A stretch of 49,663 nt of DNA from Alicyclobacillus acidiphilus NBRC 100859. GTDB lineage: Bacteria > Bacillota > Bacilli > Alicyclobacillales > Alicyclobacillaceae. The position numbers and the translations under genes were made by a program. The stretch lies in assembly GCF_001544355.1 (NCBI RefSeq), contig NZ_BCQI01000020.1, positions 1-49,663 of the forward strand. Direction: 5' to 3'. Of the stretch, positions 1 through 49,663 are shown one piece after another. Position 1 is the stretch's first letter; every line of letters starts with the position of its first letter. A model generated the notes under the pieces. It had not been told where the DNA came from and did not search any database. It was given only the letters and a program-made list of their open reading frames with translations.

Positions 1-12
1 GGAGGTGCAGGA

Positions 13-206
13 GCAAATAGGCGGCCCAGAGACGCTTATTTCGGTGAAATGGCCGGATCGAGGGAAAATAGGCGGCTCCCAGACGCCTATTTGCCTCCGC
101 CGCCCTCGAAATGGAGGGGGTGCAGCCATTTAAGCGGTCCTCGACCGCTTATTCCGTGCAAATGAGATGATTCGACACACTTAAGCGGCCAGGGGAGGCT
201 TATTTT
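13..206 (+). repeat. Four-hairpin intergenic element, copy 1 (forward)
   Basis: Four short inverted repeats follow each other: hairpin A 15-41, B 66-92, C 129-153 and D 181-205. Each stem is a variant of AAATAGGCGGC / GCCGCTTATTT with a 4-6 base loop. The linkers match those of the other copies: CGGTGAAATGGCCGGATCGA between A and B, CTCGAAATGGAG between B and C, and ATTCGACACAC before D. Stem C reads GCGGT/ACCGC instead of GCGGC/GCCGC, a compensated change. Nothing here encodes a plausible protein. The family is not one I recognise. Confidence 0.85.
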
Positions 207-252
207 CCGCTACCGCTACCGTCACCACTACCATCACTACCATCACCGCTGC
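207..252. repeat. Imperfect short tandem repeat beside element copy 1
   Basis: Degenerate repeats of the type ACCATCACT/ACCGCT directly follow hairpin D. Similar but unrelated simple repeats abut other copies of the element. No gene is visible from here to the promoter near 409. Confidence 0.6.
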
Positions 253-408
253 TCCGATTCGTGTCCACTGAGAACTGTTCCTCTTTCATTTCTACCAAAC
301 GATGACTCTGCATAGCGCTTGCATAGAAGAATACAGCCTATCTCTGTACTCCCTTATGAATCGAAAAAGAAGATGCTCTTACAATCCCACCCTACACCCC
401 CGCGGCGC

Positions 409-438
409 TGGACACGACACTGATCAGTGTCCTATGAT
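409..438 (+). promoter_or_regulatory. Promoter with embedded palindrome for the ArsR-type gene
   Basis: A -35-like TGGACA (409-414) and a -10-like TATGAT (433-438) are 18 bp apart. The perfect 14-bp palindrome ACACTGATCAGTGT (417-430) fills the spacer, about 60 bp before the likely start codon. A dyad between -35 and -10 is the usual position for an autoregulating ArsR-family repressor, so it is a good operator candidate. The regulator-site pairing is inferred. Confidence 0.55.
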
Positions 439-492
439 AAATCATACGTCAATGGGCATTGTTCAAACCGTGGCAGTAAAGGGGGCGTGATT

Positions 493-819
493 TTGAGTCA
501 TACAAAACCCGCGAGGGATGTGTATGAGGCGATTGCCGACCCGACGCGACGGGAATTGCTCCGACTCTTGGCGGATGTGGATGAATCGCCTCTTCACGAT
601 TTAACAGTTCACTTTCAAATGGGGCGAACAGCGGTTTCGAAGCACTTGGCCGTGTTGAAAGAGGCTGGACTAGTGCTGGATCGGAAGGTTGGCAGGGAAA
701 CAAGGTACAAGCTCAATGCTGAGCCGCTCCGAGAAATTCAAGATTGGGTGGCTTTCTACAGCAAGTTTTGGAATTGCAAAATGGCGCGGTTAAACCAACT
801 GCTGCAAGAGGAAGAGTAG
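493..819 (+). CDS. ArsR-family helix-turn-helix transcriptional regulator
   Basis: This encodes about 108 residues, the usual size for an ArsR/SmtB winged-helix repressor. The N-terminal part (ADPTRRELLRLL) and the recognition helix region (GRTAVSKHLAVLKEAGLV), followed by a wing (DRKVGRETRYKL), are typical of the metal-independent SdpR-like subgroup; no CxC metal-sensing motif is present. The TTG at 493 is preferred because AAAGGGGG (478-485) lies 7 bases upstream; the GTG at 487 is too close to it. The ydeI-like gene follows after 54 bp on the same strand, and such regulators often sit beside YdeI or SRPBCC genes. It probably represses its own promoter through the palindrome at 417-430. The true signal is unknown. 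Confidence 0.85.
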   Translation: MSHTKPARDVYEAIADPTRRELLRLLADVDESPLHDLTVHFQMGRTAVSKHLAVLKEAGLVLDRKVGRETRYKLNAEPLREIQDWVAFYSKFWNCKMARLNQLLQEEE

Positions 820-873
820 TTTTTTATTCGATCCCGTGTGGACGGCTGATGAACAGTGGAAGAGGGGTTTTCC

Positions 874-1470
874 GTGGAGACGGATCGCAGACTGAATCCG
901 AAGGTTGATGATTTTTTAAGAAAGTCTAAAAAGTGGAAAGAAGAATATGAGAAGCTGCGGCAGATTGTTCTGGATTGTGGGTTGACGGAAGAATACAAGT
1001 GGATGCATCCATGTTATACATTCGAGAACAAGAACATCGTTTTGATACATGGTTTTAAAGAATATTGCGCGCTTTTGTTTCACAAGGGCGCTTTGTTGAA
1101 AGATCCCTATGGAATCCTCATTCAACAGACGGAAAATGTGCAGGCGGCGCGTCAGATTCGTTTCACGCATGTGCAAGAAATTATCGATATGGAACCCATG
1201 TTGAAAGTCTACATTGAGGAAGCGATTGAAGTTGAAAGATCCGGTTTGGAAATCCAGTACAAAAAGAACACAGACTACGCTATTCCAGAAGAGTTGCACC
1301 ACAAATTCGATGAAATCCCCGGCTTGAAGACTGCCTTTGAAGCCTTGACGCCGGGACGGCAGCGAGCCTACATTCTTTACTTTTCGCAACCGAAACAGCC
1401 CAAGACTCGAGTGTCGAGGGTTGAAAAATACGTAAAGCAAATTCTTGATGGAAAGGGACTCAATGATTAG
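874..1470 (+). CDS. YdeI/OmdA-like protein (DUF1801 family)
   Basis: This roughly 198-residue protein resembles Bacillus YdeI: an N-terminal DUF1801-like domain (with the WMHPCYTFENKN stretch around residue 50), then a C-terminal YdeI/OmpD-associated helical region containing LTPGRQRAYILYF, a well-conserved segment of that family. No signal peptide or membrane segment is seen, so it should be cytosolic. The biochemical role of the family is not established. The GTG at 874 is preferred because AGAGGGG (861-867) sits 6 bases before it; an in-frame GTG at 856 lacks a ribosome-binding site. It is probably cotranscribed with the upstream ArsR-type regulator. Confidence 0.8.
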   Translation: METDRRLNPKVDDFLRKSKKWKEEYEKLRQIVLDCGLTEEYKWMHPCYTFENKNIVLIHGFKEYCALLFHKGALLKDPYGILIQQTENVQAARQIRFTHVQEIIDMEPMLKVYIEEAIEVERSGLEIQYKKNTDYAIPEELHHKFDEIPGLKTAFEALTPGRQRAYILYFSQPKQPKTRVSRVEKYVKQILDGKGLND

Positions 1471-1613
1471 ATCGAGGCTCAAAAACAGGCGTGGACCACG
1501 AAATGGACAGGATGCCGAACACCGCCATGGAACTTCGCTTGTTTGGTGGTGAGAGGCAGGGGCTGGACGCCCCTCCTACTCGATGAGAACAGTTCTGTGC
1601 GAACAGGAACGGG

Positions 1614-2858
1614 TCAGTCCACTTTGTTCGACAGGGTGAAAATCGGACGCAGTCGAACGCCGACTAAGCTGCCGATGAATCCAAAAACTGCCCAAGCCCA
1701 TCCATGCAGGCTGAATGACGCAATTCCGTCAAAATATGCCCCGATGTTGCAGCCAAAGGCGATGCGTGCCCCGTAACCCATCATGATGCCGCCGATGATG
1801 ACGGCGATCGTCATCCGAGTGGGAATACGCCGAAAATACGGTTTTGGAAAACGACCAGACATCGATGCGGCCAACAGCGCGCCCAAGATAATGCTGACAT
1901 CCAATGCCATCGTCGAATTGGCGAAGACATTGGCGTGAAGCGCGTGGGCGTTTGTAGGCGTCTGCCAATATCCCCAATGAGTCACGGGAATGCCGACAGC
2001 CTGTGCGATTTTTGCGCCCACGAGCGCAAAGGCAAAGGTTACGCCCCACGCGTTGCCGGTGATCATCAAAACCACTGCGTTGCCGATGGCCAGGATGACG
2101 CTTCCGGCCAGCAGTGACCAAGGGCCTTTGAACACTCTCCGCCAGCCGAGTCCATCGCCGCTCGCGAGAATCGACTTTACATTGCCGTTTCTGCGGCGTT
2201 CCCACAGCAATGTGCCAAAGAACACAATCGCTAGGAGCAGCAGGTTGAACAGAAAGCCGCCGGCCGCGCCAAACGTTTGGATGAAGGAGATAGGCTGCAA
2301 CTGCCAAGTGGACTGCCACCAGCCAAAGTTCCAACTGCCTAGCACCGATCCGACGATAAAACCAAGGATGGTGAGTGCGCCGCGAACATCTCCACCGCCG
2401 GAGTGAAACAAGGTGCCTGACGCGCAGCCGTCGGCGACTTGCATACCTAAGCCAAACAAGAACGAGCCAGCGAAGACGGACAAACCGACTGGATCGACGG
2501 ATCCCGTCACGGGGTGCCCGAAAATATGTCCACGCAACAGGAGTGGAAGAAACAGAATGTTGGCAATGAAAAACATCACCATATGCGATCGCAGTCCTGC
2601 GCCGCGCCGCGCAACAATGAAATTCCGCCAAGCGCTGGTGAATCCGTAGCGAGCTTGGTACAGCGTGATGCCAAGAATGCCGCCAACCAAAAAGAGCAAG
2701 GCTTGGAGCCAAGAGATGGAAAAGCCAATATACAAAGTACCGACGAGAAACAGGATGATTGCGAATACGAGAAGCCCCTTGTTGGAACCGCGGCGTTCGT
2801 TCACGGATTTCGCCGTTGTCGGTCCGTCAAGGTTGACCACGTGATTGGATACTGCCAA
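1614..2858 (-). CDS. YeeE/YedE family sulfur-compound transporter
   Basis: This is a polytopic membrane protein of about 414 residues with roughly ten hydrophobic segments. Two glycine-rich repeats carry the conserved cysteine motifs of the YeeE/YedE (TsuA, thiosulfate uptake) family: DGCASGT in the middle and FGCNIGAYF near the C-terminus. In characterised members these cysteines relay thiosulfate through the membrane; the substrate here is inferred. The TTG at 2858 is favoured because AGGGGAGG lies 8 bases upstream, whereas the in-frame GTG at 2867 overlaps that site. The gene stands alone, without a TusA- or rhodanese-type partner. A promoter is visible upstream. Confidence 0.82.
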   Translation of the reverse strand: MAVSNHVVNLDGPTTAKSVNERRGSNKGLLVFAIILFLVGTLYIGFSISWLQALLFLVGGILGITLYQARYGFTSAWRNFIVARRGAGLRSHMVMFFIANILFLPLLLRGHIFGHPVTGSVDPVGLSVFAGSFLFGLGMQVADGCASGTLFHSGGGDVRGALTILGFIVGSVLGSWNFGWWQSTWQLQPISFIQTFGAAGGFLFNLLLLAIVFFGTLLWERRRNGNVKSILASGDGLGWRRVFKGPWSLLAGSVILAIGNAVVLMITGNAWGVTFAFALVGAKIAQAVGIPVTHWGYWQTPTNAHALHANVFANSTMALDVSIILGALLAASMSGRFPKPYFRRIPTRMTIAVIIGGIMMGYGARIAFGCNIGAYFDGIASFSLHGWAWAVFGFIGSLVGVRLRPIFTLSNKVD

Positions 2859-2884
2859 AACGTTCACCTCCCCTAACGAACGTC

Positions 2885-2913
2885 ATCTTACAATAAGTAA
2901 GCAATCTAATCAA
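2885..2913 (-). promoter_or_regulatory. Sigma-A-type promoter of the YeeE/YedE gene
   Basis: On the minus strand, TTGATT (2908-2913) and TAAGAT (2885-2890) are separated by 17 bp, a good vegetative promoter. The inverted repeat CTTAC-N5-GTAAG overlaps the -10 side and could bind a regulator. Confidence 0.5.
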
Positions 2914-2956
2914 GTTTAATAATACCGGAATTGTCGGAATTGACCGTTGACGCGAA

Positions 2957-2985
2957 ATCGCCTTGGCGTGAGCAGCCAAGGCGAT
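2957..2985. terminator. Stem-loop between the YeeE and ABC-F genes
   Basis: A perfect 11-bp stem (ATCGCCTTGGC / GCCAAGGCGAT) with a 7-base loop lies just past the stop of the ABC-F gene. No good T-run follows, so it is a weak or RNA-stabilising terminator. Confidence 0.45.
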
Positions 2986-3019
2986 CGAAGTGTCTTGCGG
3001 GGGGCTGCGCGTCATTCGC

Positions 3020-4660
3020 TCAATGACCGGGGGCGATTCGCTTGCTTCGCGCTTCGTCATACCCGCCGAGATACGTTGTCGCAAGGCCGTCTTCCAGCCA
3101 AACCGTGACGTTGCAGACGCGGTTGAGAAAGTGCCGATCATGCGAGACGACCACCAAGGTGCCGTCATAGTCGTCCAGGGCGTCCTCCAAGGCTTCACGC
3201 GAGTCGATATCCAGGTGGTTCGTCGGTTCGTCGAGCAAGAGCAGGTTGACGTCCTGCTGCATCAGTTGTGCCATGCGCAACCGCATCCGTTCGCCGCCGC
3301 TGAGAGACGCATACGATTTGAACACGTCCTCACCGTAGAACAGAAACTTCGCCAGAATGTTGCGCGCCTGTTCTTCGCTGACCGCGACTTCGCTTCGAAA
3401 CATGCCGATCACGCTGGTTCGCAGGGGCTCATCCAGCGCCTGCTGGGACAAGTAGCCGGCGCGAACGGACGAACCCAATCGCACCTCGCCTTCGTCCGGC
3501 TGCAGTTCTCCGATCATCAGCTTCAACACCGTCGATTTGCCAGCGCCGTTGTGGCCGACGATACCCACGCGATTGCCCCAGCGCACTCGCAAATGGACAT
3601 CCATGAGCACGATCCGCTCCCCGAACCGTTTGCCGACACCATGCATCGTCACCACGTCCTGCCCGCTGCGCTCTCCTACCTCAAACCGCGCAGCCATACG
3701 CGCACGCTCCAACACGGGTCTGTCGAGTTTCGCGATCCGATCCATCGCCCGCTGCATATTGGTAGCCCTCCGATGCAGTCCAGCGTTTGGCGGATGGGCA
3801 CGGTTCGCCCATTCACGCAGCCGTTTGATGGCTTTGCGCATCTGTTCCAGCTTTTTCTGCTGCTCCTGATACGCGTGAAATTCGGCGAGCAGTCGCGCTT
3901 CGCGTTGCCGCATCGCACTCGTGTAGTTGCCGTGGTACACTTCCAGCTTGCCAGCATCGAGATCGAACACTTTTGTTGCGACCCGATTCAAAAATTGCCG
4001 ATCATGCGAAACCACCAGCAGCGCCCCACGATAATTGGCCAGAAACGTCTCGAGCCACTCAATGGCGTCGAGATCGAGATGGTTCGTCGGTTCGTCCAGC
4101 AGCAACAGATCCGGTTCGCGCATCAACAGTGCCGCCAGCTCGACTTTGGATCGCTCACCACCGCTCAGCGACACGCACGCGGTGTCCAGCATCGCCTCGG
4201 CAATGCCCAGGCCGCCAGCCGTGGACCGAATTTTCGCGTCCACCTGATAGCCGCCGGCTTCCTCATAGCGTTGCTGCAGCGTCGCGTACTTGGCCAACAG
4301 TCGGTCGAGTTCCCCCGATTCCGCCGCTGGATCGGCCATCTGCGCTTCAACGCGCTCCATCTGCCGCTCGATCTCGCCGATGTCCGCAAACGCCCTCTTC
4401 AATCGCTGCCACACCGTCAAATCCGCGTCATACGCTGGCAGTTGCTGCAGATAACCGATTTCGATGCCGCGTTTCACAGCGACCGTTCCGCCGTCCGGCT
4501 TGCGCTCTCCGGTCAACACCCGCAATAGGGTCGATTTGCCGCAGCCGTTCGGGCCGATGAGTGCGACGCGATCGCGATGGTGAATCTCCAACGAAACGTC
4601 CTCAAACAGCGGCTCTTTGTAAAAAGCCACCCGTACATGTTGTGCCGAACAGTAGATCAT
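3020..4660 (-). CDS. ABC-F family ATPase (ribosome-protection type)
   Basis: This soluble protein of about 546 residues has two ABC ATPase domains and no membrane segment, as in ABC-F proteins that act at the ribosomal E site (VmlR, Vga, Msr, EttA groups). Domain 1 has Walker A GPNGCGKST (K42), signature LSGGERSK and Walker B LLLLDEPTNHLDLD. Domain 2 has GHNGAGKST, LSGGERMR and LLLLDEPTNHLDID. Between them is a charged helical linker (P-site tRNA interaction motif region), of the kind that determines drug specificity. The start at 4660 is set by AAGGAG 9 bases upstream. Expression appears attenuator-controlled through the leader peptide and terminator upstream, which supports an antibiotic-response role. 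Which drug class, if any, cannot be read from sequence. Confidence 0.88.
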   Translation of the reverse strand: MIYCSAQHVRVAFYKEPLFEDVSLEIHHRDRVALIGPNGCGKSTLLRVLTGERKPDGGTVAVKRGIEIGYLQQLPAYDADLTVWQRLKRAFADIGEIERQMERVEAQMADPAAESGELDRLLAKYATLQQRYEEAGGYQVDAKIRSTAGGLGIAEAMLDTACVSLSGGERSKVELAALLMREPDLLLLDEPTNHLDLDAIEWLETFLANYRGALLVVSHDRQFLNRVATKVFDLDAGKLEVYHGNYTSAMRQREARLLAEFHAYQEQQKKLEQMRKAIKRLREWANRAHPPNAGLHRRATNMQRAMDRIAKLDRPVLERARMAARFEVGERSGQDVVTMHGVGKRFGERIVLMDVHLRVRWGNRVGIVGHNGAGKSTVLKLMIGELQPDEGEVRLGSSVRAGYLSQQALDEPLRTSVIGMFRSEVAVSEEQARNILAKFLFYGEDVFKSYASLSGGERMRLRMAQLMQQDVNLLLLDEPTNHLDIDSREALEDALDDYDGTLVVVSHDRHFLNRVCNVTVWLEDGLATTYLGGYDEARSKRIAPGH

Positions 4661-4691
4661 GTTCACGCGCTCCTTGAGCGCCCGCATAAAC

Positions 4692-4722
4692 AAAAAGACT
4701 GTGGGCGTAAGCTCCCACAGTC
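4692..4722 (-). terminator. Rho-independent terminator in the ABC-F leader (attenuator)
   Basis: Reading the minus strand, GACTGTGGG and CCCACAGTC form a perfect 9-bp stem with an 8-base loop, followed at once by TTTTTG. It lies about 35 bases before the ABC-F start codon and after the leader reading frame. A terminator at this place matches the transcription attenuators known for Bacillus and Listeria ABC-F genes. Confidence 0.78.
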
Positions 4723-4762
4723 CATTCAAGTCCGATATCCGCTTGGACGAAGGAAGGCCTGC

Positions 4763-4888
4763 TTATGCCGAGACGCCGATTGTATGATGAAAATTGGACA
4801 AAGCTATCCCGTTCAAGCTGACCGTGCCCAATTTCACGTGGCGTTCACACATGCACCACGCATCAAACAACCTTGCGCTCGTAAGCAT
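4763..4888 (-). CDS. Leader peptide upstream of the ABC-F gene
   Basis: A 41-residue reading frame starting MLTSARLFDAWC begins 5 bases after the strong ribosome-binding site GGAGGAGGTGAAGG and ends with TAA about 40 bases before the terminator hairpin. It lies between the promoter and the attenuator. Its likely role is to place a translating ribosome on the leader: a drug-stalled ribosome would change RNA folding and relieve termination before the ABC-F gene. The peptide sequence is not one I recognise. The mechanism is inferred from known ABC-F and erm leaders. Confidence 0.6.
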   Translation of the reverse strand: MLTSARLFDAWCMCERHVKLGTVSLNGIALSNFHHTIGVSA

Positions 4889-4921
4889 TCCTTCACCTCC
4901 TCCACAAGTTCAATTGTCCCC

Positions 4922-5249: not shown

Positions 5250-5271
5250 GACGTTCCAATGGGACGGAGAA

Positions 5272-5334
5272 GGAAGCGGAGGAAGCGGAGGAAGCGGAGG
5301 AAGCGGAGGAAGCGGAGGAAGCGGAGGAAGCGGA
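5272..5334. repeat. Seven perfect copies of a 9-bp tandem repeat
   Basis: The unit GGAAGCGGA is repeated seven times without error, about 50 bp from hairpin D of element copy 2. The length (a multiple of three) keeps any frame open and produces artificial Gly-Ser or Glu-Ala repeats; I do not regard it as coding. Confidence 0.9.
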
Positions 5335-5384
5335 GGGTCGCCTGCGCGATCGCGCTGCCGGCCGGGCGATGGGGCGACCGACGC

Positions 5385-5578
5385 GAATAAGCGGCGCTAG
5401 GCCGCTTAAGTGTGTCGAATCGTCTAAGTTGCGACGAATAAGCGGCGCGCAGCCGCTTAAGTGACTGACGCCGCGCCATTCTAAGCGTAACGGAGGCAAA
5501 TAAGCGTCTTTGGGCCGCCTATTTGCTTTTGGTCCGGCCATTTTGCCGAAATTGGCGTCTGAGAGCCGCTTATTTGCC
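5385..5578 (-). repeat. Four-hairpin intergenic element, copy 2 (reverse)
   Basis: In reverse order, hairpins D (5386-5410), C (5436-5461), B (5498-5524) and a degenerate A (5549-5575) are joined by the family linkers, including TGTGTCGAAT after D and the complement of CGGCAAAATGGCCGGACC between B and A. The motif GCGCGATCGCGC stands 31 bp before hairpin D. It lies between the ABC-F gene's promoter side and arsB, with no gene inside. Confidence 0.85.
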
Positions 5579-5613
5579 TGTCACCTTCGACAGCCATCGA
5601 CAGCGGGGCGTCA

Positions 5614-5824: not shown

Positions 5825-5846
5825 CCACCGTTGAAGGAGCCTCAGC

Positions 5847-8429: not shown

Positions 8430-10046
8430 TCACTGGTACATTTGGCCGTTGTAGATCACGAAGCCGAATGGGTGGTGCGTTTCGTCGATCACGGCGTATC
8501 CAGGATTCGCCGCGCTCGGATACGCGTCGGCTGCGGGAATGTAGCGGCCTTGCAGCGTGATCGACTGCCCCGGCGCGAGTCCAGGCACTTGGCTCGGCAG
8601 CCCGTCGGCGTCGCCGTAGCGAATGGCGACGTACGCTTGGCTGTCGATATCCTCCTGTGTGCCATTCCACACCTTCAGCACCTGGACGTCCCGGACCAGG
8701 AGCTGTTGGTGGCTGCCGTCGCTGGTGTGTTCATCCGCTTCCACCTTGTCGATCACGGCCTCCACACGCACCAGCACTCCCTTGTCGCTTCGCGGCGGCG
8801 AAGGCAGTGTGGGATTCGCGCCGCCGTCTCCGCGCAGCGGTGCCGGTTCGGGAGTCGCTGGTTCCGGATTGCTTCCGGACGGATTCGATGACGTGCTTGG
8901 GGCAGGCGAGGTCGGCGTGCGTCCAACGTTCGGCTGGCTCAGGTAGTTGATAAGCGCTGTCGCGTCGAACGAGCCGAACCCGGTGCAGGCGTCCCATCCG
9001 GGCGCAGCGTCGTAACCCTGCACACCGTTGAACGAGTTGTTGCCTGTCGTAATATCGCGGAACGCCGACTGCGCTTCCGATGCGTAGAGGGCACAAGCCA
9101 CACCGGACAAAGGTGGCAGTCCGTTTTGCTCGCGCTGTTGATTCGCGAGCGCAATGACCGCCGCGAACACAGGGCACGACACCGAAGTGCCGCCGACGAC
9201 AGCAGGCTGCCTTTGGAAGATGATTTGATATCCGGTCGCTGGATCGGCGTTGCACGCGATGTCAGGCAAGCCTCGCATCGAACCGGAAATGCCGTTTTGA
9301 TACGCGGGTTTGTCGAAAATGGCGCTGAAGCCGCCGCCAGTCGCTCCGCCGTTTTGCGGACCGAGGTAGGTCCATGCGGTCTCCGTGCCGTTCGGGTTGA
9401 GAGATGTGCCGCCGACCGCGATTGCGAAGGGCAGCGAAGCTGGTGCATCCGCATGCCGCGTTTTCGGCCCGGTCGTATCGTGCAAGCCGTACGCGCCCTG
9501 ATCGCCCGAGGAAATGCAGACGGTCACTCCTTTGGCGTCCAGTTGCTGAATCAACCGCGCCCACGCGTCCATATCGCTTTGCTCGAAGGAAGATTCGCCG
9601 TCGCCGTAGGAAATCGACAGAACGCTCGGTTGGTACTGCGTATCGTCGAGGATATATTGCAGCGTGCGCGTGATGGCAGCCGCAAATTCCGCATACGTGC
9701 TGCCGCCGTTCGCTTCGTATACCACGATGTGCGCGCCCGGCGCGATTGCGCCAGCCCATTGGAGGTCGAGCGTCGCTTCTTCATCGTCCGGACTGGACCC
9801 GTTGTCGTTGCGAGTGCCATCGACGGAGACAAACGAGACCTTCGGCGGCGTGATGCCGTGGCTTTGCCAGAACTGCGTAGCGTCTCGAAGGTTGTAGCCG
9901 TTGGAGAATTCCAGGATGCCGATGGTCTGGCCGCTGCCGTCCAGATTGGAGGGAATGTTGTACGCTTTCTTGATGTCGGCGGGGAAATAGCCCTGCCCAC
10001 CGTTGGGTGCGGCAGCGTCACCAAACAAAATCGTGCGTCGCGTCAT
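8430..10046 (-). CDS. S53 (sedolisin/kumamolisin-like) serine-carboxyl peptidase without propeptide
   Basis: The 538-residue product contains a complete sedolisin catalytic domain beginning near residue 20 (FPADIKKAYNIP). The Glu-Asp pair is E90/D94 (EEATLDLQWAGA), the oxyanion Asp is D182 (SSGDQGA) and the nucleophile is S288 (GGTSVSCP); the calcium-site region (FRDITTGNNSF to PGWDACTG) follows. Known kumamolisins carry a long N-terminal propeptide; here only about 20 residues precede the domain and there is no signal peptide. After the catalytic domain come a Pro/Ser/Thr-rich linker (about 365-430) and a roughly 110-residue beta-rich C-terminal domain ending near DETHHPFG-FVIYNGQMY, resembling DUF3465 OB-fold proteins. 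The start at 10046 is set by AAGGAGG 11 bases upstream. Acid-active proteolysis is the family role; secretion route is unclear. Confidence 0.87.
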   Translation of the reverse strand: MTRRTILFGDAAAPNGGQGYFPADIKKAYNIPSNLDGSGQTIGILEFSNGYNLRDATQFWQSHGITPPKVSFVSVDGTRNDNGSSPDDEEATLDLQWAGAIAPGAHIVVYEANGGSTYAEFAAAITRTLQYILDDTQYQPSVLSISYGDGESSFEQSDMDAWARLIQQLDAKGVTVCISSGDQGAYGLHDTTGPKTRHADAPASLPFAIAVGGTSLNPNGTETAWTYLGPQNGGATGGGFSAIFDKPAYQNGISGSMRGLPDIACNADPATGYQIIFQRQPAVVGGTSVSCPVFAAVIALANQQREQNGLPPLSGVACALYASEAQSAFRDITTGNNSFNGVQGYDAAPGWDACTGFGSFDATALINYLSQPNVGRTPTSPAPSTSSNPSGSNPEPATPEPAPLRGDGGANPTLPSPPRSDKGVLVRVEAVIDKVEADEHTSDGSHQQLLVRDVQVLKVWNGTQEDIDSQAYVAIRYGDADGLPSQVPGLAPGQSITLQGRYIPAADAYPSAANPGYAVIDETHHPFGFVIYNGQMYQ

Positions 10047-10150
10047 GTTCGAGCCAACCTCCTTGGGGATCGAAAAGTTTGGGACTGCGTGTCCCATATA
10101 TACGAATTCGATCACGCCGACAGAATTGTGTTGGATCTGTTCCGGGTTTT

Positions 10151-35049: not shown

Positions 35050-35103
35050 GTGAGGGTGGCGCGGTGAGGGTGGCGCGGCGAGGGTGGCGCGGTGAGGGTG
35101 GCA
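35050..35103. repeat. Four copies of a 14-bp tandem repeat beside element copy 3
   Basis: The unit GTGAGGGTGGCGCG is repeated four times (the last partial) and abuts hairpin A of element copy 3. Confidence 0.85.
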
Positions 35104-35292
35104 GATAAGCGTCCCTCAGCCGCTTATTTCGGATAAATCGCCGGACCGAAGGCAAATAGGCGGCCCCAGGCCGCTTATTTGCCTCGCTGCTTCCAAAATG
35201 GGGCGGCAACAGCCGATTAAGCGGCTGTGGACCTCTTATTCGTCGCCAATCTGCGGATTCGACACGAATAAGCGTCCTGGGGCCGCTTATTC
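35103..35292 (+). repeat. Four-hairpin intergenic element, copy 3 (forward)
   Basis: Hairpins A (35103-35129), B (35154-35180), C (35216-35240) and D (35266-35292) occur in the standard order with linkers CGGATAAATCGCCGGACCGAAGG and GCGGATTCGACACG. Here D has AATAAGC instead of TTAAGC in its left arm. Different tandem repeats flank both ends. Confidence 0.87.
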
Positions 35293-35295
35293 GCC

Positions 35296-35465
35296 CCGCC
35301 CCATCTCCGCCCCACCTCCACCCCCGCCCCATCTCCGCCCCACCTCCGCCCCATCTCCGCCCCATCTCCACCGCACCTCCACCGCACCTCCACCGCACCT
35401 CCACCCCGCCTCCACCCCGCCTCCACCCCGCCTCCACCCCGCCTCCACCCCGCCTCCACCCCGCC
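35296..35465. repeat. Degenerate 11-bp minisatellite beside element copy 3
   Basis: About fifteen copies of an 11-bp unit, grouped as CCGCCCCATCT, CCACCGCACCT and CCACCCCGCCT types, follow hairpin D. The minus strand is rich in GGGG runs and could form G-quadruplexes. Confidence 0.88.
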
Positions 35466-35540
35466 CTCGCGCTGGCGCAATAGTGACACCTCTGGCAAGA
35501 TGATACAGTATAACCGAGAAGAATGAGGAGGCAGATGGCT

Positions 35541-37882: not shown

Positions 37883-38030
37883 GTGCGTCCCCCAGCACAA
37901 ATGTCAGACGTATGTAGATGAAATATATAACAATTATATAGCACACAATTCTGTCTGTAAGCCACTACTTCATCGGTTAAAGGAATGCAGCGAGGGGAAG
38001 CGGCGAGTCTGGGGCTGGGGCGGCGGGGCG

Positions 38031-38056
38031 AATAAGCGGCCTGGGGGCGCCTATTT
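38031..38056 (-). repeat. Single hairpin of the four-hairpin element family
   Basis: AATAAGCGGC-CTGGGG-GCGCCTATTT followed by GCC matches hairpin A or B in reverse orientation. The other three hairpins are missing. It sits beside the 3' end of the decayed methyltransferase, flanked by CCTCCTCGATCGCGCG repeats (38059-38094). Confidence 0.8.
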
Positions 38057-38104
38057 GCCTCCTCGATCGCGCGCCCCCTCCTCGATCGCGCCGCCGCCGC
38101 CCGC

Positions 38105-42290: not shown

Positions 42291-42294
42291 ACAG

Positions 42295-43323: not shown

Positions 43324-43541
43324 TTATTTGCGGCGGAGCATCCGCCGCAAATAAGCCCCTCGTGGCCGCTTAAGTGTGTCGAATTGTCTGAGATGGTAGG
43401 AATAAGCGGCCCACAGACGCTTAAATGGCGGCGATCGCTCCATTTCGAGGGTGGGGAGGGCAAATAAGCCGCTCGGCACCGCCTATTTGCCTTCGATCCG
43501 GTCACTTCACCGAAATAAGCGGTTCAGGGCCGCCTATTTGC
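43324..43541 (-). repeat. Four-hairpin intergenic element, copy 5 (reverse), with an extra hairpin
   Basis: Hairpins D (43349-43374), C (43400-43424), B (43462-43488) and A (43513-43539) are in reverse order, with linkers TGTGTCGAAT, CTCCATTTCGAG and CGATCCGGTCACTTCACCG. An additional perfect 14-bp stem (TTATTTGCGGCGGA with its complement, 3-base loop, 43324-43354) overlaps the outer arm of D. GGCGATCGCTCC lies in the B-C linker. Confidence 0.86.
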
Positions 43542-43543
43542 CC

Positions 43544-43631: not shown

Positions 43632-44744
43632 TTATCCCCAAACGTCGTGCGCGATTTCGACCACCCGTTGCAATTTGGCCCATTGCTCGTCTTCGGTCAG
43701 CAGATTGCCTTCTTCCGTCGACGCGAAGCCGCATTGCGGGCTGAGGCAGAGTTGGTTGATGTCGGCAAACTTGGATGCTTCGTCGATCCGCCGCTTGACG
43801 TCGTCCGCATCTTCCAATTCGCCGAATTTGCTCGTGATGAGGCCAAGCACAATCTGTAAGTCTTTGCGCTTCACGAAGCGCAGCGGTTCGAATCCACCAG
43901 CGCGATCGCTGTCGTATTCCAGGAAGAATCCGTCAATGTCGATGCCTTGGAACAGTCGCTCGGCAACTGGTTCGTAGCCGCCGGACGCAATCCACGTGGA
44001 GCGGAAGTTGCCGCGGCAGATGTGCATCGTGATGGTGAGATCGGCAGGGCGGTCGGCAACAGCCTCGTTGATGGTCTTTGCGTATCGCTCGCCGATTTGA
44101 TCCGGATCGAGCCCATTCGCACGCAACTTACCGCGCTGCTCTTCCGAACACAGGTACGCCCACGCCGTGTCGTCGAGCTGCAGGTAACGGCATCCCGCGT
44201 CGTAAAATGCCGAGATCGCCGATTTGTACGCTTTGGCCAAGTCGGCGAAGAATTCGTCCGCGTCCGGATAGACTTCGGCGTTCATTTCGCCGCGAAAGTG
44301 CAGCATGCTCGGGCTCGGGATGGTCATCTTCGCGACGTGCGATCCGGCGATGCTTCGCAGGAACTTGAAATGATCCAGCATCGGGTGGTTGGAGAAGCCG
44401 AGCTTGTCGATCACGCGGATGGCCCGTGGCTTGGTGGTCACATTGTGGAACTGAATGCCGCCCGTTTCCGCATAGTAACCTTGGACGCCGTCGAGCTCTT
44501 CGAGGAAGTCGAAGTGCCACCACGCGCGGCGAAATTCGCCGTCCGTGACGGCTTGCAGCCCGATTTCCTTCTGCTTGGCGACGACGCGCTCGATTTCTTC
44601 ATGTTCGATTTGTCGCAGATCGTCTGCAGAGATATTGCCAGCTGCGTACCCTTCGCGGGCAGCCTTCAGTCGAGCCGGACGCAGCAAACTTCCTACCTGA
44701 TCCGCGCGGAACGGCGGGCGCTCCCGTGTTGTGTGGTTTGCCAT
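43632..44744 (-). CDS. Cobalamin-independent methionine synthase II family protein (YxjG/YxjH-like)
   Basis: The 370-residue protein resembles the C-terminal catalytic half of MetE: FRADQVGSLLRP at the N-terminus, YLQLDDTAWAYL, zinc-ligand type HICRGN, FLEYDSDRAG and PQCGFAS with the final Cys. Single-domain forms such as Bacillus YxjG/YxjH are thought to methylate homocysteine from a simpler methyl donor. AAGGGTGAT precedes ATGs at 44750 and 44744. No S-box riboswitch is seen upstream, only a terminator hairpin. Confidence 0.88.
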   Translation of the reverse strand: MANHTTRERPPFRADQVGSLLRPARLKAAREGYAAGNISADDLRQIEHEEIERVVAKQKEIGLQAVTDGEFRRAWWHFDFLEELDGVQGYYAETGGIQFHNVTTKPRAIRVIDKLGFSNHPMLDHFKFLRSIAGSHVAKMTIPSPSMLHFRGEMNAEVYPDADEFFADLAKAYKSAISAFYDAGCRYLQLDDTAWAYLCSEEQRGKLRANGLDPDQIGERYAKTINEAVADRPADLTITMHICRGNFRSTWIASGGYEPVAERLFQGIDIDGFFLEYDSDRAGGFEPLRFVKRKDLQIVLGLITSKFGELEDADDVKRRIDEASKFADINQLCLSPQCGFASTEEGNLLTEDEQWAKLQRVVEIAHDVWG

Positions 44745-44768
44745 ATGCATATCACCCTTCTCATGAAT

Positions 44769-44797
44769 CAAAAATATCCGCCCTGGACCGGGCGGAT
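44769..44797 (-). terminator. Terminator between the ring-cleaving dioxygenase and MetE-like genes
   Basis: On the minus strand, ATCCGCCC and GGGCGGAT form a perfect 8-bp stem followed by ATTTTTG. It closes the dioxygenase transcript and lies 25 bp before the MetE-like start, so it could also act as an attenuator for that gene. Confidence 0.75.
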
Positions 44798-44861
44798 CGT
44801 GATCATCCTGAATTTCCATGTCATTTCCGCGATCGATACAAATCGTACCACAAACCAGGAC

Positions 44862-45851
44862 TCAATCGATAGGCTTGAGATTCGCGAGAATCTCCTTGCG
44901 GTGCGGCTCCAATTGGGGCGCTAGAACGACCTTCTCGCCGAGCGTCTCGACATCTTCGTCGACCGCGAATCCTGGTCCTTCCGTGGCGATCTCGAAAAGG
45001 ATCCCGTTGGGTTCCCGGAAGTACAGGCTGCGGAACCAGAATCTATCAACAGGGCCGCTGTTCGGCAGCTTGAACGATCGAATGCGGTGGATCCACTCTT
45101 CGTACTCGTCGTCCGGCGTCCGGAAGGCGACGTGGTGCACGCCGCCCGCCCCCGGCTGCGCGGTGGGCAGTCCAGGCTGCACGGCGACATGCAGTTCCGC
45201 GTGGGCCCCGCCGTCGCCCATTTCGTAAACGTACACGGTGTCGCCGCGATCGACCGGATGCGGATAACTCCGCACCTGCCGCATATTCATGACCGTCGTG
45301 AGCACCACATCGGTGTATTTGAGCTCGGGCACGCTGATCAGAATCGGGCCCTGGCCGCGAATCGTGTGCTCGGCCGGAACAGGGCTTCGTTCCCATGGAT
45401 CTATGGGATCACCCTGACCGCCGTCATCGACGATGGCCAGCCGTTGGCCCTCGGGATCGTCGAAGAGGAGCGTCGCCCGACCGTCGATCACGCCGATCTC
45501 TCCAACCTCGACACCCTTTTCCTTCAGCCACTCGGCCCACCACTGTACACTTGCCGCCCCGTTCACTCGCAGATAGGTGCGCGTGATGCTGTGTGTGCCG
45601 CGCCGCTCCCGCGGAACGTTCCAATCGAAGAAGGTCAGGTCATTGCCGGGGATGCCGCGCTTGTCCCCGCTGTAAAACAGGTGGTACGCGCTGACGTCGT
45701 CCTGATTGACGCTGCGCTTGACAAGCCGCAATCCCATCGTCTTCGTGTAAAATTGATAATTCTCCCGAATCCGTGCGGACACGGCGGTCAAATGGTGAAT
45801 CCCGAGCAAATTGAAATCCTGATGTTCGCGTGATGCCGCTTGGTTGTCCAT
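44862..45851 (-). CDS. Ring-cleaving dioxygenase, glyoxalase superfamily (MhqO/LinE-like)
   Basis: The 329-residue protein holds two vicinal-oxygen-chelate modules. Metal ligands are visible in LLGIHHLT (His), GGVHHVAF (His) and GILFEIATEGPGF (Glu). Related MhqA/MhqO proteins of Bacillus are induced by quinones and cleave hydroquinones. GGAGG lies 7 bases before ATG 45851. A palindrome resembling an MhqR site stands upstream, though no MarR gene is in the window. Confidence 0.85.
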   Translation of the reverse strand: MDNQAASREHQDFNLLGIHHLTAVSARIRENYQFYTKTMGLRLVKRSVNQDDVSAYHLFYSGDKRGIPGNDLTFFDWNVPRERRGTHSITRTYLRVNGAASVQWWAEWLKEKGVEVGEIGVIDGRATLLFDDPEGQRLAIVDDGGQGDPIDPWERSPVPAEHTIRGQGPILISVPELKYTDVVLTTVMNMRQVRSYPHPVDRGDTVYVYEMGDGGAHAELHVAVQPGLPTAQPGAGGVHHVAFRTPDDEYEEWIHRIRSFKLPNSGPVDRFWFRSLYFREPNGILFEIATEGPGFAVDEDVETLGEKVVLAPQLEPHRKEILANLKPID

Positions 45852-45900
45852 GAGTTGTCCTCCAGATACAAATGAGATGGCGGTGGCAGGATCCACTTCC

Positions 45901-45918
45901 TATTTCGCGATCGCGATA
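45901..45918. promoter_or_regulatory. Palindromic operator candidate before the dioxygenase gene
   Basis: TATTTCGCGATCGCGATA has a perfect TCGCGATCGCGA core and matches the general shape of the Bacillus MhqR box (TATCTCGA-type half-sites). It lies about 50 bp before the start codon. A second imperfect dyad, TTAC-N5-GTAA, is at 45951-45963. Confidence 0.5.
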
Positions 45919-46123
45919 GGTACTATGTGAAATGTGAACGAATTACTTACATTAGGTAAACATCTTACTATAGTGTAGACCATTGTCCGATCCGTAGCAA
46001 CGTGCAGATTCCTCGGCATTGCCCAATTCGCGTCCATGTCCCAGGTCTTACGTGGGAGTGTGTGGAAAGATACGTGTGTTCATGTATCATGGAATCGACA
46101 TTTGTGGAAGGAGTTTTTCTGCC

Positions 46124-46693
46124 ATGCAAAACAAATCTGCTCGTACAGCTCTCCTGGTCATGGACATGCAAAATGGCATCGTTTCGAGGTTTGCGCAAGA
46201 TGAGCGTGTGTTACAACCTTTTCAGCGTGCGGTGGACGCGGCTCGCCGCTCCGGCATTCCGGTGATCTTCGTGCGTGTCGCTTTCCGTGAGGGGTATCCA
46301 GAGGTGAGCCCGCGCAACAAGTCGTTTTCGGCGATCTCGACGCGGGGCGGCATGACAGTGGATGACCACGCGACCCAGATCCACGATTCGGTAAAACCGC
46401 AGCCGGGGGAACCTATCGTCACGAAGCTGCGCGTCAGTGCGTTTACGGGCAGCGACTTGGAAGTCATCCTTCGCGCGAAGCAAGTCGAGACGTTGGTTCT
46501 GTGCGGGATCGCGACAAGTGGTGTCGTGCTGTCCACGTTGCGCGAAGCTGCAGATAAGGATTACGAAATCACGGTGCTTTCCGACGCCTGTCTCGACGCT
46601 GATCCAGAAGTCCATCGCGTCCTCACCGAGAAGGTGTTTCCGCGGCAGGCCGATGTGGTCACGGTCGACGAGTGGATCGGTAGAATTGGTTGA
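46124..46693 (+). CDS. Isochorismatase-like cysteine hydrolase
   Basis: The 189-residue protein has the isochorismatase fold and catalytic triad: Asp in VMDMQNG (D14), Lys in IVTKLRVSAF and Cys in LVLCGIATSGVV. Members hydrolyse amides or imides such as nicotinamide. AAGGAG lies 12 bases before ATG 46124. It diverges from the dioxygenase gene across a roughly 270-bp regulatory region. The substrate is not assigned. Confidence 0.87.
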   Translation: MQNKSARTALLVMDMQNGIVSRFAQDERVLQPFQRAVDAARRSGIPVIFVRVAFREGYPEVSPRNKSFSAISTRGGMTVDDHATQIHDSVKPQPGEPIVTKLRVSAFTGSDLEVILRAKQVETLVLCGIATSGVVLSTLREAADKDYEITVLSDACLDADPEVHRVLTEKVFPRQADVVTVDEWIGRIG

Positions 46694-46787
46694 TCCAACG
46701 TGGCATCTGTTCACGCGCACCTGGGAGGCTTCAAGCTTTTTTTGAAGTTGGTCGCATATGTTAGTCTCCTGAGGGGGTGGACGTATT

Positions 46788-46964
46788 ATGAGTCTTCACA
46801 AACATTGGGAAGTCGACTCCGTCTGTCCAAAGTGCGAACAGGTGAATCACGTGACGCTTCCGGAAGGGGAACACGTCGTCCGCGTTCAATGTGTGCATTG
46901 CGAACACGGGTACGAATATACCCACATCGTCCGCGAATACACGGAAGTCGAGGATGAAGAGTAG
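46788..46964 (+). CDS. Small zinc-ribbon protein, 58 residues
   Basis: GAGGGGGTGG precedes an ATG whose 58-codon frame reads MSLHKHWEVDSVCPKCEQVN near the start and QCVHCEHGYEYTH later. The two CxxC pairs, about 20 residues apart, form a zinc-ribbon-like knuckle; the tail is acidic. It is a stand-alone gene 94 bp after the isochorismatase gene, with no signal peptide. Function unknown. Confidence 0.75.
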   Translation: MSLHKHWEVDSVCPKCEQVNHVTLPEGEHVVRVQCVHCEHGYEYTHIVREYTEVEDEE

Positions 46965-46966
46965 TC

Positions 46967-47016
46967 CACATGATGATCTCCATCATGTGAACTTCACTTC
47001 ATGTGAACTTCACTTC
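46967..47016. repeat. Hairpin and two 16-bp direct repeats
   Basis: CACATGATG-N5-CATCATGTG (46967-46989) is a perfect hairpin right after the zinc-ribbon gene. It runs into two exact tandem copies of ATGTGAACTTCACTTC (46985-47016). It may act as the gene's terminator, though no T-run follows. Confidence 0.7.
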
Positions 47017-47068
47017 ATTGCGACGCGATGGCGGCCGGACCACTGGAATCGCTGGCGATTTTTGCAGT

Positions 47069-47584
47069 TCATTGTTCCGGTAAGATCAATTGGTAGAAGT
47101 CCACATCCTGCCATTGGCCAAACTTGTGGCCCACCTCGCGAAACCTCCCGACAAACTGGAAACCCAGTCCTTCGTGCAAGCGAACGCTGGCTTCGTTGCC
47201 GCTTGTAATGCCTGCGATCACCACATGGTGACCGCAGGTTTTTGCACGCTCCAGTATATCCACCATCAACGCTTTTCCAATGCCTTGACCGTGAAACTTC
47301 GGATGTACATACACGGAAGATTCGACAGTCCGGTCATACGCCGCCTTCTCGCGGTAGCGAGACAGTGAAGCGTACCCGGCGATCACGCCGTCCTGTTCCG
47401 CGACAATCAGCGGATAATGGCCGCCGTAGTGGGAGAACCATTCGCGGCGCTCGTCGAGTGTGAATTCGTCGAGATCGAACGTGGCCACGGTTGTGCGAAC
47501 CGCGTGATTGTAGATCTCCAGCAGGCTCGGCAGGTCGTCGATGACAGCGGGCCGGATTTGCCTCCCCGAGACTTCAGGATTCAT
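47069..47584 (-). CDS. GNAT N-acetyltransferase (phosphinothricin acetyltransferase-like)
   Basis: The 171-residue protein has the GNAT acetyl-CoA motif (VHPKFHGQGIGKALM, R/Q-x-x-G-x-G/A type) and the PAT/YwnH features: IRPAVIDDLPSLLEIYNHAVR, TTVATFDLDEFTLDERREWF and ASVRLHEGLGFQFVGRFREVGHKFGQW. Such enzymes acetylate amino-acid analogues or methionine derivatives. Its ATG overlaps the upstream dipeptidase stop (ATGA), so the two are cotranslated. Confidence 0.87.
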   Translation of the reverse strand: MNPEVSGRQIRPAVIDDLPSLLEIYNHAVRTTVATFDLDEFTLDERREWFSHYGGHYPLIVAEQDGVIAGYASLSRYREKAAYDRTVESSVYVHPKFHGQGIGKALMVDILERAKTCGHHVVIAGITSGNEASVRLHEGLGFQFVGRFREVGHKFGQWQDVDFYQLILPEQ

Positions 47585-48945
47585 TGATTCGCCAGCTCCT
47601 CAAACAAGATGCAGAATCCCTCTTGACCCAGCGGAAAATTCTTCAGCTTGAAGAATTCGTTGGGGGCGTGGATATTTTCGTGATCGCCCGAAAAACCATA
47701 CGAAATCGTGTGGACGCCGAGAAGACGGTTCATGATGCCAAGGAATGGAACCGTTCCGCCGCTGCGCGTCAAGACGGGTTCCTGCCCGTTGTAGACGCGT
47801 TTCAACGCGCGAATCGATGCTTGGGCGCCCGGGTGATCCAGCGGGAGCAAGTACGGAAACGCCGATCCCGGCAACCGTGTCACGGTACACTCCACGAGCG
47901 GCGACGCGTGTTTGAGGATGTGTCCTTTCACGCGTTCAAAAATCTGGTCAGGCGTCTGTCCCGGCACAAGACGGCAGGTGATTTTGGCGTGCGCTTCGGC
48001 CGGAATGACCGTCTTCACGCCGTCCTCCTGGAAGCCGCCCCAAATGCCGTTGATCTCCAGCGTCGGCCGCGCGACGCCGCGTTCAGCCGGCGTGTAGGCA
48101 GGCTCGCCAATGGTGCCTTTGATGCCCGCGTACTGCACGAACTCGGCGACGTTGTCATTTGCCGCGATGCGTTTGCGCTCTGCTTCGTCGAGATCGATCA
48201 CGTCGTCGTAGAAACCGTCCACCAGAATGGTTCCATCGGCCGCCCGCATGGAAGCGAGCAACTCGACCAAGGTGTGAATCGAGTTCGGCGCGATGCCGCC
48301 GCCCGAACCGGAATGCAGGTCCGTCTTCGCGCTCCGCACGTCAATTTGCATGCCGACCAAACCTCTCACCCCGTACGGCAGCTCCGGCCCCTTGTCGCTC
48401 TGGCCGGAATCGGCGGAAATGACGAGATCACAAGCCAGCAGGTCCTTGTGGGCCGCGACAAACGACTCCAGGTTTGGCGAGCCAATCTCCTCCTCGGCCT
48501 CAATCAGCAACTTTACGTTGACTGGCAGACGGCCCTCCGCCTTGAGCCACGCTTCACACGCGATCACGGCGGTCAACACGCTGGTCTTCATATCCGAGGC
48601 GCCGCGCGCGTAGATGCGCCCGTCGCGAATGGTCGGCTCAAACGGCGGCGTCTCCCACAGTGCCAGCGGATCGATCGGCTGCACGTCGCAGTGCCCATAG
48701 ATGAGCACCGTCGGCGCGGACGGCGCGTTCAGCCACTGCGCGAAAAGCACAGGATGGCCGCCCGTTTCGAAGATTTGCGTATCGTCAAAGCCAGCTTGTT
48801 TAACGCGATTCTCTGTCCACTCGACCGCCCGTCGGACGTCTCCGGAATGAGCCGGACTCGTGGAAATGCTCGGTATTTTCAAAAATTCGATAAGCTCGTC
48901 GAGAAAGCGCGGCTGCGCCTTCTCCAAATACGTCTTCCAGGACAT
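47581..48945 (-). CDS. M20 family dipeptidase
   Basis: The 454-residue protein has the M20 di-zinc ligands and catalytic residues in order: YGHCDVQP (His and catalytic Asp), RGASDMK (bridging Asp), EAEEEIGS (catalytic Glu plus Glu ligand), ISADSG (Asp) and the C-terminal HAPNEFF (His). Length and motifs match cytosolic dipeptidases of the CNDP/PepV type. GGGAGG lies 7 bases before the ATG. It may degrade imported peptides. The GNAT gene is coupled downstream. Confidence 0.9.
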   Translation of the reverse strand: MSWKTYLEKAQPRFLDELIEFLKIPSISTSPAHSGDVRRAVEWTENRVKQAGFDDTQIFETGGHPVLFAQWLNAPSAPTVLIYGHCDVQPIDPLALWETPPFEPTIRDGRIYARGASDMKTSVLTAVIACEAWLKAEGRLPVNVKLLIEAEEEIGSPNLESFVAAHKDLLACDLVISADSGQSDKGPELPYGVRGLVGMQIDVRSAKTDLHSGSGGGIAPNSIHTLVELLASMRAADGTILVDGFYDDVIDLDEAERKRIAANDNVAEFVQYAGIKGTIGEPAYTPAERGVARPTLEINGIWGGFQEDGVKTVIPAEAHAKITCRLVPGQTPDQIFERVKGHILKHASPLVECTVTRLPGSAFPYLLPLDHPGAQASIRALKRVYNGQEPVLTRSGGTVPFLGIMNRLLGVHTISYGFSGDHENIHAPNEFFKLKNFPLGQEGFCILFEELANQ

Positions 48946-49061
48946 GGTCTGCCTCCCTTGTCTTACGCCGATGAAAGGCGCATCGACCCACTTTGTCCTA
49001 TTCTAGCGGAACGGGCTGCCGAAGGGATAGAGTGCTCACGACAAATGCTTTCGGTTCGGGC

Positions 49062-49096
49062 GGGAAGGGAAGGAGCGGGAAGGAGCGGGAAGGGAG
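49062..49096. repeat. Purine-rich tandem repeat beside element copy 6
   Basis: Repeats of GGGAAGGAGC lie about 33 bp before hairpin A of copy 6, followed by GCGATCGCGAGG. Confidence 0.75.
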
Positions 49097-49097
49097 G

Positions 49098-49429
49098 CGC
49101 GATCGCGAGGGGCGGCGGGGTGACCGAGCAAATAGGCGGCCCAGAGCCGCTTATTTCGGAGAAACGGTGGAATCGAAGGCAAATTAGGCGGCCCCAGGCC
49201 GCTTATTTGCCTCCGGTACCCTCAGAATGGAGTGGTTTCGGCCAAATAAACGGCTGTGGGCCGTTTATTTGGCACCTATTCGATTATTCGACACACTTAA
49301 GCTGCCCCAGGCCGCTTATTTGCCCCCGGTGCCCCGGGCCGCCGCAGAATGGAGCGCCCCCGGGGTCGCTTAACCGTCCCGTTCTCCCCGGTGCGTGGAA
49401 TCATTCACCTGACTGCGGGCAGACGGCAG
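49098..49429 (+). repeat. 332-bp tandem unit 1, containing element copy 6
   Basis: The unit starts at CGCGATCGCGAGGGGCGG and holds hairpins A (49130-49156), B (49181-49208), C (49242-49272) and D (49297-49321), then about 100 bp of GC-rich spacer. Stem C uses AAACGGC/GCCGTTT in place of AAGCGGC/GCCGCTT, a compensated change. Confidence 0.9.
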
Positions 49430-49663
49430 CGCGATCGCGAGGGGCGGCGGGGTGACCGAGCAAATAGGCGGCCCAGAGCCGCTTATTTCGGAGAAACGGT
49501 GGAATCGAAGGCAAATTAGGCGGCCCCAGGCCGCTTATTTGCCTCCACTGCCCTCAGAATGGAGTGGTTTCGGCCAAATAAACGGCTGTGGGCCGTTTAT
49601 TTGGCGTCCATTCGATTATTCGACACACTTAAGCTGCCCCAGGCCGCTTATTTGCCTCCGGTG
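49430..49663 (+). repeat. 332-bp tandem unit 2 (cut by the window end), containing element copy 7
   Basis: This repeats unit 1 with only a few differences: hairpins A (49462-49488), B (49513-49540), C (49574-49604) and D (49629-49653), each shifted by exactly 332 bp. The sequence leaves the window 10 bp after hairpin D, so more units may follow. Confidence 0.9.

Follow-up and report, generated by a model that had tools for sequence, protein, structure and literature searches.

Dispersed palindromic arrays of Bacilli that keep their spacing rather than their sequence

Introduction

A contig of Alicyclobacillus acidiphilus NBRC 100859 (NZ_BCQI01000020.1), analysed over its full length of 49,663 nucleotides and referred to here as the window, carries six copies of a repeat of about 200 bp that is built from four palindromes. 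What is this repeat, and how could it have spread? The initial annotation described it as unrecognised and suggested three natures for it, namely a non-autonomous mobile element, an RNA, and a nucleoid or attachment site. We find that the repeat is real and that it apparently represents an unreported family of non-coding DNA elements in Bacilli. The conserved trait of this family is geometry, not sequence. In other words, the palindromes stay at about whole helix turns from one another amid changing sequence, which points to a putative protein that binds the DNA on one face.

The usual explanation of interspersed palindromic repeats invokes single-strand hairpins and RAYT transposases. The family described here is large and keeps its spacing rule across many genera despite sequence turnover, and the genomes tested are mostly without such a transposase. 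The long-open question of how such repeats function and spread becomes directly testable by means of an array with known spacing.

The description of the repeat as unrecognised was borne out by searches of Rfam and of the literature. The window matched 0 of 4227 Rfam families at gathering score, and five fetched loci gave three sub-threshold Rfam matches only. A known Rfam RNA was rejected or at least weakened on this ground. Likewise, a literature search, whose coverage left out most subscription journals, turned up no description of this element family.

Organization of the element

An alignment of 51 copies was prepared from 53 hits scoring above 80 bits in the fetched stretches, from which a contig-end copy and an opposite-strand duplicate were dropped. 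The covariance model built from these 51 copies (201 positions, 44 pairs) recovered all six copies of the window, in both orientations. The lone hairpin that had been listed with them was confirmed by repeat listing. The coordinates shifted slightly; the start first given for the fourth copy (43324) proved to be about 20 nt too early, as the model places this boundary at 43343.

11..211, + strand: four-palindrome copy 1, at the contig end (covariance model, 196.2 bits)
5379..5579, - strand: four-palindrome copy 2 (covariance model, 199.9 bits)
35099..35298, + strand: four-palindrome copy 3 (covariance model, 194.5 bits)
43343..43543, - strand: four-palindrome copy 4 (covariance model, 184.3 bits)
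49126..49327, + strand: four-palindrome copy 5 (covariance model, 212.4 bits)
49458..49659, + strand: four-palindrome copy 6 (covariance model, repeat listing and DNA query)
about 38027..38060, no strand: solitary hairpin, perhaps a remnant of an element (repeat listing)
49130..49156, + strand: palindrome H1 of copy 5 (by hand from the sequence, the copy alignment and the pair list, as are the next three)
49177..49212, + strand: palindrome H2 of copy 5
49243..49271, + strand: palindrome H3 of copy 5 (also a listed inverted repeat)
49294..49322, + strand: palindrome H4 of copy 5

Copy 6 is a tandem duplicate of copy 5, ~97% identical to it and 332 bp away. Each aligned copy (n=51) consists of four imperfect palindromes whose right arms are alike (CCGCTTATT) and whose linkers are nearly constant in length. 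All four stems noticed in the window recur throughout the alignment in the same order, as do all three linkers. The palindromes have 21-bp cores resembling TAAG-N13-CTTA, which are spaced 51/61-62/51 bp apart in the window genome. The linker sequences are conserved inside this genome only. A scan for palindrome centres that used no sequence was too noisy, as it found exactly four centres in only 1 of the 51 copies.

The copies fold far beyond chance on either strand (z -7.55 and -6.37), and the RNAalifold consensus is weak. Mismatched cells in the alignment (56 listed pairs in 51 copies) amounted to 135 G-T versus 163 A-C, indicating that neither strand is favoured overall; by stem, H1 and H2 lean to G-T, and H3 and H4 to A-C. 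The covariance model matched both strands of many copies. The layout is therefore nearly dyad-symmetric. Terminal inverted repeats are present in the predicted fold, in which the left arm of H1 pairs with the right arm of H4.

Conservation of spacing across Bacilli

The family looked species-specific until spacing served as the criterion. One copy used as a DNA query matched its own genome only, among 15 genomes of the genus and 41 of the family, and a 20-base linker motif had no hits in collections of genomes and viral contigs (from which its own genome may be left out). Matches to the covariance model occurred in 11 genomes out of 59 in the order, its own among them (G040 with 34 hits, G032 with 28, G038 with 10, others with 1 to 4). 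G030, G026 and G055, each with a single weak hit, were not counted as members. The copies of G040 and of G038/G039 are also ~200 bp long with four palindromes, but their linkers are different. By eye, the linkers of G040 differ even among its own subfamilies.

A spacing pattern was then defined in which only TAAG and TA are fixed at 51/62/51-type spacings (22 fixed bases). It matched 6 of the 41 family genomes, namely the window genome (G000), its congener G003, G037, G038, G039 and G040, and 14 of 398 class genomes, the latter counted without one-by-one inspection. A reversed control pattern matched none of the 41 or the 398, and a control with shifted spacing none of the 398. In a collection of genomes, the pattern was found in at least 102 stretches, 80 of them with titles, and all 80 titled ones bear Bacillota names. 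The names among the matches listed include Paenibacillus, Cohnella, Bacillus, Neobacillus, Cytobacillus, Solibacillus, Ureibacillus, Evansella, Peribacillus, Sporolactobacillus and Alicyclobacillaceae, along with others; we take these to belong to Bacilli, HSP1.bin40 being named only to phylum. Our own estimate of chance matches in this collection is below one at even base composition, and the two empirical controls are stronger evidence than this estimate. G038 and G037 appear to be identical with two of the named assemblies (I2511 and HSP1.bin40) and are hence not independent of them. Two viral pattern hits were read as low-complexity repeats and dropped. Thus, the repeat is not restricted to the window, as further copies occur in the genome and relatives were recognised by spacing.

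Spacings between TAR-N15-YTA sites are dominated by 51, 62, 113 and 164 bp in the window genome and by 51, 61, 112 and 163 bp in G040. Family relatives whose linkers are unrelated show the same spacing, as do other Bacilli. Distances of 226, 277 and 339 bp in the 80 titled loci indicate that arrays continue with alternating 51 and 62 bp, and in G040 seven overlapping pattern matches follow one another at intervals of 112 to 113 bp. Several Paenibacillus carry the element as a 113-bp tandem dimer that is nearly exact (similarity of L1 to L3, 0.80 to 0.81). The orientation of the sites varies. Two forward and two reverse sites make up 14 elements of the P. agri clade, in which P1 resembles P2 (0.77) and reversed P4 (0.82) but not P4 as it stands (0.11). 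Direct 113-bp tandem units occur in P. plantiphilus, the P. alba group and G037, and the orientation is ambiguous in the window genome.

Other arrangements were also seen. G032, in spite of its 28 model hits and many 62-bp spacings, has no 51/62/51 pattern match. The same is true of G018 and G035, which contain other arrays: one of 135-bp units with 41/94-bp spacing in G018 (L097) and a 52-bp tandem hairpin array containing GCGCGATCGCG in G035 (L095). Besides its 51/61 elements, G040 contains a further type of phased array (L111:879-1116 and L122:109-712), whose half-sites resemble TAGGGATC/GATCACTA and are spaced 41/41/52 bp apart.

A possible helical phase of the spacings

If the sites are required to lie on the same side of double-stranded DNA, steps of the observed size are expected. 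Across all fetched sets, 450 distances of 25-130 bp between adjacent sites fell into classes of 41-42, 50-53, 60-63, 73, 83, 94-95 and 112-114 bp, with six others. The 51 and 60-63 classes in the Bacilli loci were selected by the pattern, whereas 41, 73, 83 and 94-95 were not selected by any pattern. There were 30 off-class distances among the 450. Six of these (75, 77, 82, 96, 97 and 118 bp) were set aside by inspection as lying outside arrays; the remaining 24, inside arrays, were 41, 42, 73, 83, 94 or 95 bp, none of which deviates from a multiple of 10.4 by more than 1.4 bp.

Sequence change and presence between species

Three orthologous element sites with shared flanks were available, each in two loci: L134/L197 from two Solibacillus species, L137/L142 from P. 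agri and Bacillus sp. FJAT-27264, and L157/L227 from P. agri and another record. At these few sites the palindromes change more slowly than the linkers, with 5 of 252 palindrome versus 24 of 301 linker positions changed (p=0.0017). When positions fixed by the pattern were excluded, the counts were 5 of 186 versus 24 of 301 (p=0.017). At the first of these sites, one Solibacillus has ~340 bp directly adjoining the orthologous element (L134:2608-2971) that its relative (L197) lacks.

The element also differs in presence between species. G003 carries one element, of unrelated sequence, between genes that we read as an M23-type peptidase and argS. No element was found in the 417 nt beyond the argS homologue in G006, G007 and the window genome, where the peptidase gene appears to be the same. 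In G013, which among the congeners is closest to G003, the site has another neighbour, and no exact empty-site junction was obtained. The comparison of intergenic regions with and without the element, which the initial annotation had proposed, yielded presence and absence (G003 versus congeners).

Of the 102 sites in the wider Bacilli set, 81 were usable, and 32 of these lay between convergent open reading frames (ORFs), versus 75 of 539 other adjacent ORF pairs (p=2.8e-7), and the median distance was 164 bp to 3' ends versus 256 bp to 5' ends. This convergent-gene preference is absent in the window genome, where 9 sites were convergent, 9 divergent and 19 codirectional among 37.

Copies in the window genome and their surroundings

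The window genome is 3.86 Mb in size, and the ORFs resemble those of an Alicyclobacillaceae-type Firmicute. A DNA query with one copy gave at least 59 matches in it, partial and opposite-strand ones included (best 40 of 118 candidates scored), and the covariance model gave 150 rows (best 150 of 1193 candidates scored). Merging of rows with starts less than 100 bp apart left at least 123 places, some of them partial, at contig ends or overlapping. The element is thus dispersed as described, at about 120 places in the genome. Pairs of places less than 450 bp apart numbered 24, of which three were among overlapping rows on contig C105.

Are the copies always between genes? By the ORF calls of our own script, 12 of the 51 copies overlap an ORF of at least 150 aa (10 ORFs). 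Seven of these ORFs have no Pfam family at E 0.01, and three have a match (L036, L047 and L037, of which L037 matches Yae1_N marginally), with matched residues that do not extend over the element. The intergenic position therefore stands as far as tested.

Short tandem repeats were found within 100 bp of 42 of the 51 copies in the window genome versus 6.5% of random positions, and they differ from locus to locus. The association is weaker in G040 (5 of 14 versus 11.2% of random positions) and absent in the wider Bacilli set (3 of 102 versus 2.0%). The 100-bp flanks in the window genome are G-rich on the left or H1 side (47 of 50) and C-rich on the right or H4 side (42 of 50). Two such tandem repeats were recorded in the window by repeat listing and flank inspection.

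5262..5345, no strand: 9-bp tandem repeat (AGGAAGCGG) on the H4 side of copy 2
35296..35472, no strand: C-rich 11-bp tandem repeats abutting copy 3 on its H4 side

Two side observations were also made. The sequence GCGATCGC, presumably the HIP1 palindrome of cyanobacteria, is tenfold denser beside elements than in the remaining fetched DNA of the window genome, with 33 occurrences in 300-bp flanks (1.16 per kb) versus 39 elsewhere (0.115 per kb). The ORF at 8430-10115 (- strand) resembles a sedolisin/kumamolisin-type protease.

A proposed mechanism and its rivals

How might such arrays work? We put at about even odds the proposal that they are dispersed, modular, non-coding arrays of short palindromic sites on one helix face, bound by a putative protein. 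The smallest common unit would be ~113 bp, with two 21-bp sites ~5 turns apart and then ~6 turns to the next; two such units would make up the ~200-bp element of the window, and longer arrays exist. A dimer of the putative protein would probably bind each site in its double-stranded form, and neighbouring dimers may touch or bridge along one helix face. The copies would multiply in a REPIN/BIME-like fashion, perhaps aided by the same protein.

A miniature mobile element of the MITE (miniature inverted-repeat transposable element) or REPIN type, in which a trans-acting transposase recognises hairpins in single-stranded DNA or the ends and the geometry is kept for that transposase, is in our judgement a rather unlikely explanation. 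It accounts for dispersed copies with unrelated flanks, the quasi-inverted-repeat layout, the local duplicates (the 24 close pairs), and the element of G003 that is absent beyond apparently the same gene in three congeners. The unit length is also close to that of REPIN doublets, which PMC3116915 simulates at 71 and 110 bp. However, the near-helical steps are not explained by single-stranded hairpins, and no target-site duplication was seen, as the longest k-mers shared between flanks equalled those of shuffled partners in 49 and 101 flank pairs, with element ends being uncertain. A MITE with target duplication was rejected or at least weakened on this basis. The Y1 transposase family (PF01797), for which RAYT and IS200 are pooled, was matched in 17 of 41 family genomes, and among the pattern-positive ones G038 has 4 matches and G039 has 3. 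The window genome, G003, G037 and G040, which make up four of the six genomes of the family that are pattern-positive, had no match, and neither did G018 or G035. G032 gave one partial match, and the positive control matched in 5 of 14 known genomes. A RAYT-driven REPIN was accordingly rejected or at least weakened. Furthermore, no gene linked to the arrays was found. Only 9 clusters, the largest of 3, formed among 162 flanking genes, and no gene stood out among 1155 ORFs near arrays in the wider set, where the largest cluster, with 19 ORFs in 12 groups, is interpreted by us as an ABC-transporter ATPase. No candidate for an autonomous parent element emerged among those 1155 ORFs. A cis-linked gene was thus rejected or at least weakened in both ORF sets. 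Of the suggestion of a non-autonomous mobile element, the dispersal, local duplication and presence/absence between species stand, but neither target-site duplication nor a linked transposase was found. Since four of six genomes have no Y1 transposase match and neither target duplications nor an array-linked gene were found, phased protein sites in duplex DNA that multiply as REPIN/BIME-like repeats are favoured.

It is improbable that the element acts as a structured RNA or messenger RNA element, such as a terminator, stabiliser or small RNA, with four hairpins in transcripts. Strong folding would suit such a role, as would the excess between convergent ORFs and the closeness to 3' ends in the Bacilli set. 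The absence of a strand preference speaks against it, as do the weak RNAalifold consensus, the lack of an Rfam family at threshold on the window and the lack of a gene-context preference in the window genome (9/9/19 of 37), and near-whole-turn spacing has no RNA reason. Near-helical spacing, together with the missing strand preference, favours a DNA site over RNA. Replication slippage or template switching at hairpins, by which the arrays and the flanking micro-repeats would be mechanical and functionless, seems very improbable. Frequent local duplication and the tandem repeats beside copies in the window genome and G040 fit it. In the wider set, however, the tandem-repeat link is absent where the spacing stays conserved, and slippage predicts neither equal spacing in unrelated sequences nor slower palindrome change.

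Several points weigh against the proposal of a protein bound to phased sites. Core sequences diverge between lineages to such a degree that a single conserved binder would need to co-evolve with them. The 24 exceptional spacings stem from three assemblies (G040, G018 and G037/HSP1.bin40), which contain internal repeats. The 30 off-class distances do not fix a single period, as they score 0.73 at 10.4 bp (phase 0.1 bp) and 0.81 at both 10.6 and 11.0 bp (phases -1.0 and -3.5), with scores of 0.42 at 9 and 0.15 at 12. Spacings of 61 and 112-113 bp fall 1.4 to 2.4 bp short of multiples of 10.4 bp. The difference between palindromes and linkers is seen in two orthologous pairs (2 of 84 versus 13 of 100 and 2 of 84 versus 10 of 100) and not in the third (1 of 84 versus 1 of 101). 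Finally, copy number ranges from 0 to more than 100 in related species, so that any host role must be dispensable.

What stands independently of the mechanism is that the spacing is fixed and kept through sequence turnover across many Bacilli, that the exceptional spacings lie near multiples of 10.4 bp, and that arrays duplicate locally in tandem. The placement on one face, the binding protein, the bridging and the REPIN/BIME-like multiplication are what we infer from these observations. A broader proposal, made tentatively and at somewhat under even odds, is that helical geometry rather than sequence is the inherited trait across Bacilli and that a lineage-specific putative protein reads the one-face palindromes as duplex DNA and may organise the chromosome or propagate the arrays.

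Comparison with known systems

Phased operator or centromere-type site arrays present several palindromic binding sites on one helical face. Unlike them, the elements described here are dispersed at about 120 places, and no recurrent neighbouring regulator gene was found. CRISPR arrays share short palindromic units at regular distances, but they have near-identical repeats with unique spacers, whereas here the palindromes diverge within an array, the linkers are related between copies, and usually two units per locus are dispersed over the genome. No cas families turned up in a Pfam scan of ten window genes near copies, although no search aimed at cas was made. Repeats of the BOX, RUP and bcr1 type are sometimes modular. 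Together with other Gram-positive MITE-like repeats they are listed in PMC2267715 and PMC3733652 as intergenic stem-loop repeats of 100-200 bp, as here. In contrast to them, the present family showed no target duplication and is not confined to one species group, a distinction drawn by description and not by sequence.

REPINs, which are found with RAYT in Pseudomonas and others, are also extragenic imperfect palindromes in doublets, with a spacer length more constrained than spacer sequence and with tandem clusters. According to PMC3733652, REPIN-type repeats have a GTAG or CGTC tag beside the palindrome. Here GTAG is absent from the 51-copy consensus, and CGTC follows H3 only as a plurality reading and does not follow H1, H2 or H4. 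No Y1/RAYT gene was matched in the window genome, and the same holds for three of the other five genomes of the family that are pattern-positive. Furthermore, the common form has four sites at near-helical spacing, and this spacing is common to many genera. The anatomy is nearest to REPINs, but the defining transposase is missing in the window genome.

The claim that the element is unlike simple repetitive extragenic palindromic (REP) sequences was only partly right, because a two-palindrome unit of ~113 bp that forms ordered tandem arrays resembles the anatomy of REPINs and BIMEs. BIMEs, the enterobacterial mosaics of REP sequences, expand in tandem and have alternating short and long linkers between their palindromes. 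What sets the present family apart from them is a 51/62 spacing that is common to many genera while the palindromes differ, and a half-site of the form TAAG/CTTA.

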